Below, piece by piece: positions 5,528 to 48,066 of a stretch of DNA of 64,000 nt. The position numbers and the translations under genes were made by a program. A model generated the notes under the pieces. That model had not been told where the DNA came from and did no database searches. It saw only the letters and a list, made by a program, of their open reading frames with translations. This stretch comes from Ideonella livida (GTDB lineage: Bacteria > Pseudomonadota > Gammaproteobacteria > Burkholderiales > Burkholderiaceae_C), in the NCBI RefSeq assembly GCF_010499455.1, contig NZ_JAAGOH010000004.1:62001-126000 (forward strand), in the 5' to 3' direction. Within the stretch, counting starts at the first letter, position 1. Each line of letters starts with the position of its first letter.

Positions 5528-6829
5528 TCAGGCCAGCAGGTCGCGCAGCCGGTACCAGGCCATGCCCAGTACCAGGGCAGGGGTGCGCAGCAACCGTCCT
5601 CCGGGGAAGGGCCGGTGCCGCAGGCGTGCGAAGACGTCGAAGCGGCCGGCATCTCCCGTCATGGCCTCGGCCACCAGCTTGCCCGCCAGGCCGGTGAGGG
5701 CCAGGCCATGCCCGGAGAAGCCCTGCAGGTAGTACAGGTCTGGCGCCAGCCGCCCGAAGTCCGGCGCGCGGTTCATCGTGATGTCCACGAAACCGCCCCA
5801 GGCATGGGTGATGCGGGCGTGGGACAGGGCGGGCAAGGTGCCGACCATGCGCTGGCGCATGGACTCGGCCAGGCGGGGCGGGGTGAGGGTGCTGTAGCTG
5901 ACCCGGCCACCATAGAGCATGCGGTGGTCCGCGGTGAAGCGGAAATAGTCGAGCACGAAGTTGTTGTCGCACACCGCAGAGCGGCTCGGGATAAGCCGCC
6001 GGACCAGTGCCGGATCCAAGGGTTCGGAGCAGACGATGTAGGTGCCCACCGGCATGATGCGCGCCTCCAGCGCCGGGGCCACTCCCTGCAGGTAGACGTT
6101 GCCGGCCAGCAGCACCTGCCCGGCCCGCACCACGCCCTGCGGTGTCTGCAGGCGGTGGCCACCGCCCGGCAGGGCCTGCAGGGCGGTCACGGGGCTGTCC
6201 TCATGCAAGCGTGCACCGGCCTGTTGGGCGGCGCGGGCCAGGCCCAGGGCATATTTCAAGGGGTGCAGATGCCCGGACTCGGGGTCATGCAGGCCGCTGT
6301 GGTAGCGCGGGCTGTCGATCCAGCTGCGCAGGTCCGCGGGACCGATCAGGGTGTAGCGAGCACCGTAGAGGCGGTCCATGCGCTCGGCCCACGCCGCCAG
6401 CTCTGCACTCTTGCCGGGCTTGGTTGCCACACCCAGGTAGCCGGCCTGCCAGTCACAGTCGATGGCATGGGTGGTCAGGCGTTGGCGCAGCAGCGTCAGG
6501 GCCTCCAGGCTCATGCCCCAAACCTGACGCGCGGCCTCCATGCCCAGCTGGTCTTCGATGGTGGTCTGGTCGCAGGCCAGGCCGTGGATGGCCTGGCCGC
6601 CATTGCGCCCGCTGGCCCCCCAGCCGACCTGGCGGGCCTCCAGGACCACGACCGAGCGTCCGGCCTGGGCCAGTTCCAGCGCGGCGCTCAGGCCGGCCAG
6701 ACCACCGCCCACGATCGCGACGTCGGCGGTGGTCTCGCCGGCCTGCGGCGCATGATGATGGGTGCGCGGGGCCGTCGCGGCGTAGTAGGAATCGCGTGCG
6801 AGGTTCTGATCGGTGCTCAGCAGACGCAT
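5528..6829 (-). CDS. puuB: FAD-dependent gamma-glutamylputrescine oxidase
   Basis: A 433-residue FAD oxidoreductase of the DAO family, expected to oxidise gamma-glutamylputrescine to the aldehyde. The dinucleotide-binding motif VAIVGGGLAGLS is near residues 38-49. ITHAWGGFVDITMNRAPDFG and YYLQGFSGHGLALTGL form the conserved C-terminal FAD contacts. The ATG at 6829 is chosen because MRLLSTDQNLARDSYYA matches the family start; an in-frame GTG at 6871 is the alternative. No aldehyde dehydrogenase (PuuC) is in this cluster, so the aldehyde must be handled by an enzyme encoded elsewhere. It is probably the first gene of the polyamine operon. Confidence 0.87.
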   Translation of the reverse strand: MRLLSTDQNLARDSYYAATAPRTHHHAPQAGETTADVAIVGGGLAGLSAALELAQAGRSVVVLEARQVGWGASGRNGGQAIHGLACDQTTIEDQLGMEAARQVWGMSLEALTLLRQRLTTHAIDCDWQAGYLGVATKPGKSAELAAWAERMDRLYGARYTLIGPADLRSWIDSPRYHSGLHDPESGHLHPLKYALGLARAAQQAGARLHEDSPVTALQALPGGGHRLQTPQGVVRAGQVLLAGNVYLQGVAPALEARIMPVGTYIVCSEPLDPALVRRLIPSRSAVCDNNFVLDYFRFTADHRMLYGGRVSYSTLTPPRLAESMRQRMVGTLPALSHARITHAWGGFVDITMNRAPDFGRLAPDLYYLQGFSGHGLALTGLAGKLVAEAMTGDAGRFDVFARLRHRPFPGGRLLRTPALVLGMAWYRLRDLLA

Positions 6830-7076
6830 AGGCAAGGCCACAAGGGCCGGTGGGAGGGTAGGGGACGCCACCGGCCCAGCAAGCCCCGGACCACGGGTGG
6901 CGGACCGTCGGGACAGGCGGGCACAGCGGCCGGGTGTTTGGCCCGGCGCCGCGTCGGCAGCGTCATCTTGTGAGCCAGTCTAGCCAAGGCGGCGCGCAAT
7001 GTGCTTGCGCCCTGGGCACAGGCTTTCCCCTGCCGGTGCAATTCCGTGCTGTCAGATGAGGGTCTGTTCGCAGAAA
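6830..7076. promoter_or_regulatory. Divergent control region between puuB and the Lrp-type regulator
   Basis: This 247-base divergent region should hold both promoters. It contains a palindrome at 6994-7010 with arms GCGCAA and TTGCGC around a 5-base centre. That size and form suit an Lrp/AsnC-family operator. No convincing sigma-70 boxes were picked by eye. Confidence 0.45.
6994..7010. promoter_or_regulatory. 17-bp palindrome, candidate Lrp/AsnC operator
   Basis: GCGCAA-TGTGC-TTGCGC is an exact inverted repeat with 6-base arms, about 67 bases before the regulator's start codon and 165 bases before the puuB start. A small palindrome next to the gene of an AsnC-type regulator is the common layout for autoregulation and control of the divergent operon. 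Binding is inferred, not shown. Confidence 0.4.
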
Positions 7077-7556
7077 ATGCCAAACATGAGCCTTCCGCCG
7101 CAATTCGATGCGATCGACCGCCTGATCCTGGAGGAGCTGCAGGTCGATGGCAAGCTGTCCAATGTGGAACTGGCCCAGCGCATCCACCTCTCTCCCTCGG
7201 CCTGCCTGCGTCGGGTCAAGCAGCTGGAGGACAGCGGCTACATCGACCGCTACGTGGCCCTGCTCAACCCCAAGAAGGTGGGTCAGCCCGGCACCAGCTT
7301 CACCATCATCAACCTGGAGAGCATGAGCAACCAGGTGCTGGAGGCCTTCGAGCAGGCCGTGCGCGCCACGCCGCAGATCCTGGACTGCTACTACGTGGCC
7401 GGCGCCAACGACTACCTGATCCGCTTCTCCTACCGCGATGCGGAGGACCTGGAGCGCTTCCACACTGAAGTGCTGATGCGCCTGCCCGGCGTGGAGCGCT
7501 CCAACTCCATCCTGGTGCTCAGGACGGTCAAGAAGACCACCGCGCTGCCGGTCTGA
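7077..7556 (+). CDS. Lrp/AsnC family transcriptional regulator
   Basis: A 159-residue regulator with an N-terminal winged HTH (AIDRLILEELQVDGKLSNVE, then the recognition helix in LSPSACLRRVKQLEDSGYI) and a C-terminal RAM/AsnC ligand domain ending in LRTVKKTTALPV. The frame is open upstream from 6999, but that extension is low-complexity. The family begins near MPNMSLPPQFDAIDR, giving ATG 7077 or ATG 7086. It is divergent from the polyamine catabolic genes and is the obvious candidate for their control, by analogy with other amino-acid- or amine-responsive AsnC proteins. The effector is unknown. Confidence 0.88.
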   Translation: MPNMSLPPQFDAIDRLILEELQVDGKLSNVELAQRIHLSPSACLRRVKQLEDSGYIDRYVALLNPKKVGQPGTSFTIINLESMSNQVLEAFEQAVRATPQILDCYYVAGANDYLIRFSYRDAEDLERFHTEVLMRLPGVERSNSILVLRTVKKTTALPV

Positions 7557-7591
7557 GCGCCGGCGCCAGCGGTCGGCCCCGACACCGGGCT

Positions 7592-8128
7592 TCAGACCGC
7601 CATCACCAATTGCGTGCGGCGGGCGTCCGCTTCAGCGTCGGCCTGGGCCAGGCGGCGCCGCGCCTCGGGGTAGATCAGGCTCTCCTCCAGGGCGATGTGC
7701 TCCTGGTAGAGCTCGGTGAACACCTGGATGCCATGTCGCAGCGCATCCAGGTCGTACCAGCTGTAGCCCCGGGCCAGGGCATCCATCTGCGGGCCCAGCT
7801 CGATCCAGTCCTCCTCCAGCCAGCCATGGTCCTGCTGCAGGCGCTGGACATGGGCCACCAGGGTGGCGTCGGTACTCTCCAACAGGCTGGGGAATACATG
7901 CAGGTCTTCCTGGGCATGGTGGGCGCGTGCCTCCTGCTCGAAGAACTGGGCAATCTGCCGTGCCTTCGCCTGGACGGGGGGCGTCACGCCTTCCTCGGCC
8001 AGGGTGTCCACCAGGGTGGCCAGTTCGGCCAGTACCCGCATGACCTGGCGGTGGGTCTGTTCCAGGGCCTCCAGGGGCGGCAAGTCGGGCACGGCGGGAC
8101 GGGCGGGGCGGTTCTTGGCGGTTGACAT
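7592..8128 (-). CDS. Hemerythrin HHE domain protein
   Basis: A 178-residue protein with an HHE four-helix cation-binding domain. Metal-ligand candidates are in EQTHRQVMR, ARAHHAQEDLHVFP, and HIALEESLIYPEARRR, the pattern of a non-heme di-iron hemerythrin-like site. The ATG at 8128 has a good AGGAG site; the frame extends further upstream through low-complexity sequence. Relatives act in oxygen or nitric-oxide sensing and iron handling, but the specific role is unknown. It is convergent with the Lrp gene (35-base gap) and reads away from the aceA control region. Confidence 0.82.
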   Translation of the reverse strand: MSTAKNRPARPAVPDLPPLEALEQTHRQVMRVLAELATLVDTLAEEGVTPPVQAKARQIAQFFEQEARAHHAQEDLHVFPSLLESTDATLVAHVQRLQQDHGWLEEDWIELGPQMDALARGYSWYDLDALRHGIQVFTELYQEHIALEESLIYPEARRRLAQADAEADARRTQLVMAV

Positions 8129-8367
8129 TGCAGGCTCCTGGTGGGTGAGGGATGGCCGATTGTTGAAAGCCGACCCGGCGTGGCCTTGCGCGGCGTCAAG
8201 CCGGCGATGGGTGCTGGCCGGACTCCCCGGTGTGGCGCACGCACCGCACTGGCGTGGGGCGCGGCTGTGGGGGCCACGCCACGGCCGCACCAGGCTGGGA
8301 CGCGCCGCAAAGGCACTGGCCCAAGGAACGAGGCCTGTTGCAGCCGCTGAAATCGAACTCTCACATC

Positions 8368-8407
8368 ATGAAAAAATTCTGTGTTGCAGCGCAGCAGAAT
8401 TTTTCAT
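8368..8407. repeat. 40-bp imperfect inverted repeat upstream of aceA
   Basis: The left arm ATGAAAAAATTCTG is mirrored by CAGAATTTTTCAT with one extra A in the left arm and a 13-base centre that includes TTGCAGCGCAG. It lies about 55 bases upstream of the aceA -35 box. This is a suitable place for an activator or a second repressor site, or the start of a hairpin in a leftward transcript. Confidence 0.55.
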
Positions 8408-8437
8408 CGTGGAAAAACGAATTTCACATTGCGATAT

Positions 8438-8455
8438 CAATGATGCAAGTCATTG
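8438..8455. repeat. Small palindrome upstream of the aceA -35 box
   Basis: CAATGA-TGCAAG-TCATTG is an exact inverted repeat with 6-base arms and a 6-base centre, ending 7 bases before the proposed -35 box. It could be a regulator site. The possibility of chance is real in an AT-rich stretch. Confidence 0.4.
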
Positions 8456-8461
8456 TTTTTG

Positions 8462-8490
8462 TTGGATTGAAGAGTTGTGTCTTATATAAG
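8462..8490 (+). promoter_or_regulatory. Sigma-70 promoter of aceA
   Basis: The -35 box TTGGAT (8462-8467) and the -10 box TATAAG (8485-8490) are separated by 17 bases. Transcription would start near 8497. The -10 box lies inside a perfect 16-bp palindrome, so this promoter is probably repressible. Confidence 0.6.
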
Positions 8491-8493
8491 ACA
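8478..8493. promoter_or_regulatory. Perfect 16-bp palindrome over the aceA -10 box
   Basis: TGTCTTATATAAGACA reads the same on both strands with no centre gap. It fully covers the -10 hexamer, the classic position of a repressor operator. The shape resembles operators of GntR-type regulators of central carbon genes in proteobacteria, but no regulator gene for it is seen in this window, so the protein is unknown. Confidence 0.6.
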
Positions 8494-8585
8494 TAAGTGT
8501 TGTGATGCGAGGCGACGGGAGTAAGCTTTGGTCCATACCAAGCCGAGTTTTGACCGACTCACCTCTCACCCGTTAGGAGAACCTG

Positions 8586-9902
8586 ATGTCCCAACTGACC
8601 CGCGAACAACAGATTGCCGCCCTTGAGAAGGACTGGGCTGAGAACCCCCGCTGGAAGGGCGTCAAGCGCGGCTACACCGCTGCCGACGTCGTCCGCCTGC
8701 GTGGCTCCCTGCAGCCCGAGTACACCCTGGCCCAGCGCGGTGCCAAGGTGCTGTGGGACAAGGTCAACGGTGGCGCCAAGAAGGGCTACGTGAACGCCTT
8801 CGGCGCCATCACCGCCGGTCAAGCCATGCAGCAGGCCAAGGCTGGCCTGGAAGCCGTGTACCTGTCGGGCTGGCAAGTCGCCGCCGACGGCAACACCTCC
8901 GAGACCATGTACCCCGACCAGTCGCTGTATGCGTACGACTCGGTGCCGACCATGGTCCGGCGCATCAACAACACCTTCAAGCGCGCTGACGAGATTCAGT
9001 GGAGCCGCGGCATCAACCCGGGCGACGAAGGCTTCATCGACTACTTCCTGCCCATCGTGGCTGATGCGGAAGCCGGTTTCGGTGGCGTGCTGAACGCCTT
9101 CGAACTGATGAAGAACATGATCGCCGCCGGTGCCGCCGGGGTGCACTTCGAAGACCAGTTGGCCGCCGCCAAGAAGTGCGGCCACATGGGTGGCAAGGTG
9201 CTGGTGCCGACCCGCGAAGCCGTGGAGAAGCTGATCTCCGCCCGCTTCGCCGCCGACGTGATGGGCGTGCCCACCCTGATCCTGGCCCGTACCGACGCCG
9301 AAGCCGCCAACCTGATCACCTCGGACTACGACGCCAACGACAAGCCCTTCCTGACCGGTGAACGCACCCAGGAAGGCTTCTACCGCGTCAAGAACGGTCT
9401 GGAGCAGTCCATCAGCCGCGGCGTGGCCTACGCGCCCTACGCCGATCTGGTGTGGTGCGAGACGGGCGTGCCGGACATCGGCTTCGCCCGCGAATTCGCC
9501 CAAGCCGTGCTGGCCGCCTGCCCGGGCAAGCTGCTGAGCTACAACTGCTCGCCGTCGTTCAACTGGAAGAAGAACCTGAACGACAGCCAGATCGCCTCCT
9601 TCCAGGAAGAGCTGAGCGCACTGGGCTACAAGTACCAGTTCATCACCCTGGCCGGCATCCACGTCAACTGGTACAACACCTTCAAGTTCGCCCACGCCTA
9701 CGCCCGCGGCGAAGGCATGAAGCACTACGTGGAAATGGTGCAGGAGCCGGAATTCGCCGCCCGCGAACAAGGCTATACCTTCGTGTCCCACCAGCAGGAG
9801 GTCGGCACCGGCTACTTCGACGAAGTGACCACCGTGATCCAAGGCGGTTCCTCTTCGGTGAAGGCCCTGACCGGCTCGACCGAAGAAGAGCAGTTCCACT
9901 GA
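8586..9902 (+). CDS. aceA: Isocitrate lyase
   Basis: A 438-residue enzyme that cleaves isocitrate to succinate and glyoxylate in the glyoxylate shunt. The catalytic signature KKCGH is at residues 196-200 with nucleophilic C198. [12 protein letters not shown] and [11 protein letters not shown] are further family blocks. The length is normal for the shorter bacterial type. The start is preceded by TAGGAGAACCTG. Malate synthase is not adjacent. The isocitrate dehydrogenase gene, which competes for the same substrate, is 16 kb away at 25788. Regulation is suggested by the palindromes upstream. Confidence 0.97.
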
Positions 9903-46784: not shown

Positions 46785-46813
46785 GTGACGGGCCAGGCTG
46801 AATACTGTATAAA
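46785..46813 (+). promoter_or_regulatory. Promoter of the radical SAM gene
   Basis: The -35 box GTGACG (46785-46790) and the -10 box TATAAA (46808-46813) are 17 bases apart. The -10 box sits inside the LexA-type palindrome, so the promoter should be shut by LexA binding. The leader before the ATG at 46840 would be only about 20 bases and holds a GGAG site. Confidence 0.55.
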
Positions 46814-46825
46814 GATACAGTATTC
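46800..46825. promoter_or_regulatory. LexA (SOS) box
   Basis: The 16-bp core CTGTATAAAGATACAG (46805-46820) fits CTGT-N8-ACAG. The 20-bp form TACTGTATAAAGATACAGTA matches the E. coli consensus at 18 of 20 positions. The inverted repeat extends to 11-base arms (GAATACTGTAT and its mirror) around a 4-base centre. This is far beyond chance for a region of this composition. Confidence 0.85.
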
Positions 46826-46839
46826 ACTGGAGTCCAGTC

Positions 46840-48066
46840 ATGCCGTTCCGCGACTCGTCCACCCCGATCCCTGTCTCTCCCAGTGTCAAGGGGCGAGGTA
46901 CGGTGTGGCTCATGCCCCACCGGTTCAGCCAAGATCAGCGTGAGCCAGTGGACGATGGCTGGTGCCCACAGCGACCAAGGGACGCCCGGTCAGAGCTTTC
47001 TGCGGTCAGCCTGCCGACCCGTGTGGAACCGGTGGAGGTGCGCAGCATCTTGACCGGCAACGATTCGCCGGACATCAAGTTCGACCTGTCCCTCAATCCC
47101 TATCGGGGCTGCGAGCACGGGTGCATCTATTGCTATGCACGGCCCACACACAGCTACCTCAACCTCTCGCCGGGCCTTGAGTTTGAGACCCGCATCCTCG
47201 CCAAGACCAATGCCGCACAGCGGCTCAGAGAGGCACTGGCCAGCCCAGGCTATGAGCCTTTGGCACTCAATCTGGGATCAGCGACCGACGCCTACCAGCC
47301 CGCAGAGCGACGACTGGGCATCACGCGAGCACTCATCGAAGTGCTCGCCGAACATCGGCATCCGTTCTCTGTCATCACCAAATCAGCAAGCATCGAGCGT
47401 GATCTGGACTTGCTGGCCCCCATGGCGGCGCAGGGCCTGGTGGGCGCCTATGTTTCCATCACCACCCTCGATCCAGCCTTGGCCGCCATCATGGAGCCCC
47501 GCGCTGCAGCGCCCCAACGGCGACTGCAAACCATAGAGCGGCTCGCCAATGCCGGCATCCCCGTGGGGGTCAGCGTCTCTCCCGTGATTCCCTTCCTCAA
47601 CGAACCAGAGCTCGAACGCATCCTGGAGTCCGCTGCGGCCGCAGGCGCACGCCATGCTTTTTCCATTCCCTTGCGGCTGCCCTGGGAGGTGAACCCGCTG
47701 TTTCAGGACTGGCTTGCCCGACATTTTCCGCAGCGTGCCGCACGTGTCATGGCTCGGCTGCGGGATATGCGAGGCGGCAAAGACAACGATGCCCAATTTG
47801 GCAGCCGCATGACCGGCCACGGCCTGTGGGCGGATCTGCTGCGGCAGCGCTTCGAGAAGGCTCGGCGGCGGCTGGGGCTGTCGGCTGACCGCATCGTGTT
47901 GGACGACAGCCTCTTCCGCCGCCCCGAGCCCGCCGCGGGGCAGAAGCCTGAAAGCGGCCCGCTGCCGCTGAGCCGTCGGCGCAGTGCGTCAGGTGCTGGT
48001 GTGCCTAGTCAAACGGCAAGAATGCCGCATCCGACCCGGATGCCGCTGCAGAGGCCTCTGTTCTGA
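46840..48066 (+). CDS. Radical SAM protein, PA0069/SPL-related family, SOS-controlled
   Basis: A 408-residue radical SAM enzyme of the PA0069-like group, related to spore photoproduct lyase. The cluster cysteines are in NPYRGCEHGCIYCYARPTH (CX3CX2C, about residues 91-98). FETRILAKTNAAQRLREAL, LGSATDAYQPAERR and SVITKSASIERDLDLL follow in family order, and RDMRGGKDNDAQFGSRM is near the end. KGRG near residue 17 is also shared with relatives. A LexA box overlaps its promoter, which suggests a DNA-damage role. The substrate is unknown. The last ~45 residues are low-complexity. Confidence 0.9.
   Translation: MPFRDSSTPIPVSPSVKGRGTVWLMPHRFSQDQREPVDDGWCPQRPRDARSELSAVSLPTRVEPVEVRSILTGNDSPDIKFDLSLNPYRGCEHGCIYCYARPTHSYLNLSPGLEFETRILAKTNAAQRLREALASPGYEPLALNLGSATDAYQPAERRLGITRALIEVLAEHRHPFSVITKSASIERDLDLLAPMAAQGLVGAYVSITTLDPALAAIMEPRAAAPQRRLQTIERLANAGIPVGVSVSPVIPFLNEPELERILESAAAAGARHAFSIPLRLPWEVNPLFQDWLARHFPQRAARVMARLRDMRGGKDNDAQFGSRMTGHGLWADLLRQRFEKARRRLGLSADRIVLDDSLFRRPEPAAGQKPESGPLPLSRRRSASGAGVPSQTARMPHPTRMPLQRPLF

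Follow-up and report, generated by a model that had tools for sequence, protein, structure and literature searches.

A LexA box upstream of a PA0069-family radical SAM gene: conservation of the box and comparison with spore photoproduct lyase

SplB-like radical SAM genes and the SOS response

A LexA-regulated 'splB' was predicted in alpha- and beta-Proteobacteria in 2012 and was presented, in the available part of that paper, as the earliest evidence for a photoreactivation enzyme under SOS regulation (PMC3323433). That SplB-like radical SAM genes are under SOS control has likewise been published, to judge from the descriptions in excerpts of two further papers (PMC8565304, PMC7739468), the second of which places a radical SAM protein in the SOS core of Gram-positive bacteria and in the Balneolaeota. 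By description in the accessible sections of the respective sources, a radical SAM protein is included in the LexA table of S. venezuelae (PMC9380542), a RecA-dependent 'DNA repair photolyase' occurs in M. tuberculosis (PMC8151990), and SplB-like radical SAM proteins are tied to SOS operons (PMC3765255); another partial text urges caution over naming an Rv2578c-family gene SplB (PMC12924846). Two Caulobacter SOS papers (PMC12700426, PMC13384398) make no mention of photolyase, radical SAM, splB or lyase, nor does a P. aeruginosa SOS review (PMC13114513) mention photolyase, radical SAM or lyase. No paper treating PA0069 together with LexA was found in the open-licence literature, and a search limited to open-licence papers returned no substrate test of the PA0069 family. 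PA0069 reportedly belongs to the published LexA regulon of P. aeruginosa.

The enzyme taken for comparison is spore photoproduct lyase (SPL), in which Cys141 donates a hydrogen atom, Tyr99 relays and Tyr97 assists, whereas the SPL of C. acetobutylicum uses a cysteine at a different place (both from the available part of PMC5368176); Cys141 is therefore not the sole possible donor, and another donor is possible. Its substrate, the spore photoproduct, is the photoproduct of endospores, as given in an excerpt of PMC3742179.

The PA0069-family gene and its LexA box

We analysed a 64-kb stretch of DNA, here called the window, which contains a radical SAM gene preceded by a LexA box (Table 1). Assignment of the encoded protein to the PA0069 family, as made in the original prediction, was borne out, because it matched NF033668 (rSAM_PA0069) with 441.3 bits and passed the curated NCBI family cut-off of 360; the Pfam Radical_SAM match reached 61.7 bits. 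The next relative after PA0069 was the Rv2578c family (NF038135), followed by the 'mobile pair protein B' model (E 2.6e-20). Since the window protein stays below the NF038135 cut-off (210.2 bits, the family's own cut-off being 430), we regard Rv2578c as a sister family of PA0069. An alignment of 268 rows, comprising 267 members and the window protein after 19 of 287 sequences had been dropped (stops or less than 280 aa), showed the cluster cysteines C91, C95 and C98 in all rows (268/268), and E92, H93, Y97, R101, T149, D150, Q153, P154, E219 and R221 were invariant as well. Of 100 genomes sampled from the window's family, 72 had a gene over the NF033668 cut-off, compared with a single genome (1/100) for TIGR03886 SPL-family genes. 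Searches of PDB sequences with the window protein found no close relative. A phage origin was not supported: 8 of 50,697 phage records matched, none of them over 80% of the query.

Table 1. Features of the radical SAM locus (window coordinates)
Feature	Position	Strand	Basis
Putative promoter: GTGACG 46785-46790, 17-bp spacer, TATAAA 46808-46813	46785..46813	+	sequence read; inferred
Perfect inverted repeat TGAATACTGTAT/ATACAGTATTCA, 12-nt arms, 4-nt centre, enclosing the LexA box	46799..46826	.	repeat search
LexA (SOS) box TACTGTATAAAGATACAGTA	46803..46822	+	sequence read; pattern search; kept upstream of orthologues
GGAG, probable ribosome-binding site	46829..46832	+	sequence read; inferred
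PA0069-family radical SAM protein, 408 aa	46840..48066	+	ORF; NF033668 profile match; Pfam Radical_SAM
CEHGCIYCY, codons 91-99: Cx3Cx2C cluster motif (C91, C95, C98) with Y97 and Y99	47110..47136	+	alignment
GSATDAYQPAE family motif, codons 146-156 (S147 inside)	47275..47307	+	profile alignments; column counts

The box ends 17 bp before the ATG of the gene and is identical at 18 of 20 positions to TACTGTATATATATACAGTA, which we take to be the E. coli LexA box consensus. The near-perfect SOS box of the original prediction was thus confirmed, and the full pattern CTGTATATATATACAG, with up to three mismatches allowed, had one match in the window and none in any of 100 shuffles; by comparison, the bare CTGT-N8-ACAG, expected 0.62 times per window and found at least once in 45 of 100 shuffles, is not significant alone. 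The predicted inverted arms are indeed perfect but measure 12 nt instead of 11 bases. An overlap of the box with the -10 element had also been claimed, and a -10-like TATAAA does fall within the box; the promoter to which it would belong is a plausible, putative one, read from the sequence, and a consensus promoter scan of the locus listed none on the plus strand, because its rule needs a T at the sixth position, which TATAAA does not have.

Across the whole genome (G000, 5.26 Mb, 104 contigs) the mismatch-free 16-position box was found only at the PA0069 gene and at an imuA-like gene, the latter heading an imuA-imuB-dnaE2-like cassette (names read from translations). With up to three mismatches, eight places were recovered vs one for a reversed control pattern. 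The genome encodes LexA (profile match, 225.2 bits), and the box of lexA itself, GTCTGGATAAAAATACAGTA, agrees at 13 of 16 positions (three mismatches) and ends 22 bp before the lexA ATG; a weaker box at this place fits autoregulation. Good LexA-like boxes also precede two genes whose products resemble a glyoxalase-type (VOC) protein (C50:4458, L019) and a molybdate-type regulator (C11:139591, L020); both are possible unlisted SOS genes. Another LexA-like box, GACTGGATGTTCATACAGTA, lies at G000:C36:1412-1431 (L021) near an integrase-like open frame which, by eye, resembles an integron integrase.

Conservation of the box and gene neighbourhood

Upstream regions of PA0069-type genes were sampled at four levels: the window's family (Burkholderiaceae in the GTDB sense, to judge from the named relatives), the class joining beta- and gamma-Proteobacteria, the phylum Pseudomonadota, and named relatives including Rubrivivax, Variovorax and Paraburkholderia. 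A box was counted as present when at least 12 of 16 positions agreed. The scan of relatives suggested in the original prediction gave a clear answer in the window's family, with a box in 63 of 70 loci and in none of the 70 coding-region controls; this sample held 72 loci (71 genomes besides the window's own and a partial second copy, L099), two of which (L050, L095) had too little upstream DNA. The seven box-less loci score 7 to 11 of 16, four of them 10 or 11. All 11 loci of family f160 carry the box. LexA was over its cut-off in all 30 genomes of the window's family chosen for this search. When 40 genomes of the window's family were scanned for the 16-position pattern, at most two mismatches being allowed, each had between 0 and 5 sites (81 summed, vs 2 for the reversed control), and in at least 15 of the 40 one of these few sites lay directly before the PA0069 gene.

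In the phylum sample (104 of 111 loci over the cut-off, the other seven being the window's own genome and six loci counted in other samples), 24 loci had the window-type box, 66 had GTTC-N7-GTTC or its reverse complement and 14 had neither, with coding controls at 0/104 for each of the two motifs. Divided by kinship, the 24 loci with the window-type box all belong to the 31 from the window's class, and the 66 with GTTC-N7-GTTC to the 73 from other classes. Among the named relatives (best 80 of at least 596 loci), the window-type box was found in 52 and GTTC-N7-GTTC in 5 (coding controls 0/80 and 1/80, respectively), and the latter five loci (L225, L226, L227, L230, L237) carry alphaproteobacterial labels as read. 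The PA0069-type genes of S. meliloti and P. denitrificans stand behind GTTC-N7-GTTC. The class sample (best 30 of 60 genomes over the cut-off) gave a box at the 12-of-16 level in no more than 3 of its 30 loci, and the match at one of the three, L118, is poor. Within the named sample, the box is missing from all seven loci that bear the names Stenotrophomonas, Dyella, Rhodanobacter or Lysobacteraceae (L205, L214, L222, L224, L231, L232, L236). SOS control of PA0069 genes is therefore not universal. Loss of LexA was rejected as the cause of box absence, 25 of the 30 class genomes having a LexA match, 22 of them over the cut-off.

Conservation across genera and in two LexA motif types strongly supports LexA control of the PA0069-family gene, as far as it can be read from sequence. 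Since the box recurs at such frequencies in the family sample and, as one or the other motif, in the phylum sample, we consider SOS control of a PA0069-type gene near certain, but not new, as it is known in kind. A gene under DNA-damage control in groups with differing LexA motifs is probably useful after DNA damage.

Several single loci deserve mention. At L118 (genome G264) an exact TTAGTAATAATACTAA (14/14), presumably the Xanthomonas-type LexA motif, lies upstream of a PA0069 gene that elsewhere has other LexA motifs, and the same genome shows extra partial matches to the PA0069 family. At several loci of the window's family, among them L029, L031 and L042, the LexA box overlaps an in-frame ATG by one base, its final A being also the first base of that codon (distance -1), which would give either a very short leader or a start further in. 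L168, on a contig labelled Myxococcales, encodes a protein 66% identical to the window protein behind a beta-type box, and the bin label may be wrong. On a Tsukamurella plasmid (L321), TCGAAC-N5-GTTCGAA stands just before an Rv2578c-family gene, a spacing which we take to be one base off the actinobacterial SOS spacing.

A neighbour search over up to 152 loci (80 from the named and 72 from the family sample) revealed no dominant same-strand partner, the largest cluster comprising 27 loci. Many of the clusters were antisense open frames in GC-rich DNA; the one cluster recognised by eye was dnaJ, which in 17 loci lies downstream on the opposite strand. Most probably the PA0069 gene of the window forms an SOS unit by itself. 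One operon-like row was found in genome G181 (L353, G181:C1:190000-206000, positions 6749-9689), where GAAC-N7-GAAC precedes a lexA-like gene (Peptidase_S24 and LexA_DNA_bind), followed on one strand by a Y-family polymerase gene (IMS) and a PA0069 gene, the matched parts of the last two being 11 bp apart; this PA0069 gene (L106) is without a box of its own, and the lexA-like gene is the second one in that genome. The box-less genes did not turn out to lie in an imuA-imuB-dnaE2 cassette: among 19 larger regions (L353-L371, some ended by contig ends), 18 were without lexA, imuA, imuB or dnaE2 nearby, the remaining one being the G181 row. At L206 an imuA-like match (33% identity) lies about 2 kb upstream of the PA0069 gene on the opposite strand.

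Comparison with spore photoproduct lyase and a possible function

A structure model of residues 17-371 (pLDDT 93.1, pTM 0.90), which replaced an earlier one with a pLDDT of 67.8, had SPL structures as its five best PDB matches, with TM scores of 0.50-0.61 and 14-16% identity; these matches are partial, and other radical SAM folds follow. The best E value was 3.3e-8 (4fhg) and the highest TM score 0.61 (4k9r). SPL occupied ranks 1-5 and 7 and SkfB rank 6, with the others lower, and the structural neighbours include RlmN, viperin, TYW1, SkfB and MgmA. A profile comparison with four SPL-type sequences (a fifth row, L314, was empty) gave an E value of 3.4e-7 and a probability of 93, whereas comparisons with a single SPL sequence were weak (probability 37.6 and 28.3). 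The SPL family models TIGR04070 and TIGR03886 did not reach their cut-offs, with 12.4 of 400 and 10.5 of 437.55 bits (E 0.054 and 0.25). Because these models respond only marginally, the original description of the enzyme as related to SPL holds for fold and remote profile but not for family membership.

The residues of the SPL hydrogen relay were located in the family alignment. In two of three profile alignments covering the site, S147 aligns with Cys141 of B. subtilis SPL and D150 falls on a shared Asp, whereas the third puts Cys141 on P140 instead; the S147 column is preferred, since S147 directly follows a predicted strand (143-145) and the Asp is kept in register. Cys is found in none of the 268 members in column 147 (Ser in the window protein) and in 67 of 268 in column 140 (Pro in the window protein). 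Column 99, corresponding to SPL Tyr99, has Tyr in 110 and Phe in 158 of 268, and Tyr97 is invariant (268/268), the window protein having both Y97 and Y99. No cysteine outside the cluster is universal in the alignment, and 29 of the 268 aligned stretches have the three cluster cysteines and no other. These counts in columns 147, 140 and 99, together with the lack of a universal non-cluster cysteine, argue that the SPL relay is not the common mechanism of the PA0069 family. Judged from alignment and model, the fold and the start of the radical reaction would be common to SPL and the PA0069 family, the hydrogen relay not.

Taking together what the sequence offers (the box, its conservation, the cluster motif, the predicted fold and the missing relay), we propose that LexA on the -10 region would repress the PA0069 gene and that DNA damage, through RecA-stimulated cleavage of LexA, would release it. 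The product would bind a [4Fe-4S] cluster and SAM through CEHGCIYC and would form the 5'-deoxyadenosyl radical in an SPL-like barrel, and the radical would most likely attack a nucleotide, damaged or modified, within a nucleic acid. Since the Cys141-Tyr99 path is not available to the family at large, the hydrogen atom would more likely be returned from 5'-deoxyadenosine or another residue, or SAM would be consumed. The reading towards which we lean as reasonably probable is that of a radical SAM enzyme, induced in the SOS response, which treats a lesion in nucleic acid by a route other than the SPL relay. Of the original proposal of a LexA-controlled repair of a lesion or modified nucleotide, SOS control is strongly supported by conservation, and SPL-type photoproduct chemistry is weakened.

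That the protein is a true UV-photoproduct lyase, reversing the spore photoproduct or another dipyrimidine dimer without light, as the splB of the SOS literature implies and as PMC3323433, in its available part, takes its own splB, would agree with SPL being the closest solved fold, with the invariant Y97 and the Y99 kept in the window protein, with the one alignment that puts Cys141 on column 140, where some members have Cys, and with the displaced cysteine of C. acetobutylicum SPL, which makes another donor possible. However, the column of S147 never holds Cys, that of Tyr99 more often holds Phe, no non-cluster cysteine is universal and some members have just the three cluster cysteines, the SPL-model scores lie far under their cut-offs, and the spore photoproduct belongs to endospores; we therefore consider this explanation, which the original prediction had raised as light-independent repair of a UV photoproduct, unlikely, the SPL relay not being conserved in the family.

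The gene could instead encode an SOS-induced modifier of RNA, nucleotide or protein, not involved in DNA repair, with LexA giving the timing alone. An SOS box does tell timing and not substrate, the neighbours RlmN, viperin, TYW1, SkfB and MgmA act on RNA, nucleotides, peptides or proteins, and the substrates of similarly folded radical SAM enzymes include RNA, peptides and small molecules; but SPL ranks above nearly all of these among the PDB matches, with only SkfB interposed, the shared SOS core consists of DNA repair and translesion synthesis (PMC3323433, available part), and in the G181 row a PA0069 gene stands together with genes for a LexA-like protein and a Y-family polymerase, so that we regard such a modifier as unlikely. 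That the box is a chance palindrome or the site of another regulator is extremely improbable: the loose CTGT-N8-ACAG alone is indeed expected 0.62 times per window, but the full pattern is absent from all 100 shuffles, the box is kept in 63 of 70 family loci and GTTC-N7-GTTC occurs in 66 of 104 phylum loci. On shuffles and conservation the chance box was rejected.

Beyond the favoured reading, a wider proposal may be put forward tentatively, although we hold it to be rather doubtful: PA0069, with its sister Rv2578c, might be a second radical SAM nucleic-acid repair family, distinct from SPL, which the SOS response deploys during vegetative life in a large part of the phylum (i.e., in most sampled loci of the window's family and of the classes with GTTC-N7-GTTC boxes) and which reverses a lesion for which direct reversal has not been proposed, with no conserved protein thiol to donate the hydrogen atom. 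If this were true, the SOS label 'splB photolyase' would be a long-standing misassignment. The usual label (SplB, photolyase) is in any case at odds with the active-site residues of the PA0069 family. The locus had been put forward as a hint of undescribed biology, which is half right, SOS control of SplB-like genes being already in print; the question it raises is that of the lesion treated by the PA0069 enzyme and of the route by which the hydrogen atom returns.

Compared with known systems, the window protein has in common with B. subtilis SplB (PDB 4fhc, 4k9r) the fold, the Cx3Cx2C motif, Tyr97 and a remote profile similarity, whereas the PA0069 family is without a conserved equivalent of Cys141, often has Phe for Tyr99, and the identity is 14-16%. 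With NF033668, a hypothetical equivalog, it shares the motifs CEHGCxYC and TDxYQPxE, and no difference was seen in its core; the C-terminal tail, from roughly residue 368 onwards, lies outside the model. The Rv2578c family matches it with an E value of 3.8e-62, and a Tsukamurella member of that family shares the TDxYQ motif and 38% identity over 181 residues. The active-site residues of the PA0069 family give no support to the photoreactivation-enzyme reading in the available text of PMC3323433. The 'splB' of that paper very probably is the PA0069 family: it was predicted in the same classes and with two types of LexA motif, the species list of the paper (as far as the available part goes) contains S. 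meliloti and P. denitrificans, the PA0069-type genes of both species stand behind GTTC-N7-GTTC, and TIGR03886 genes are so rare in the window's family (1/100).
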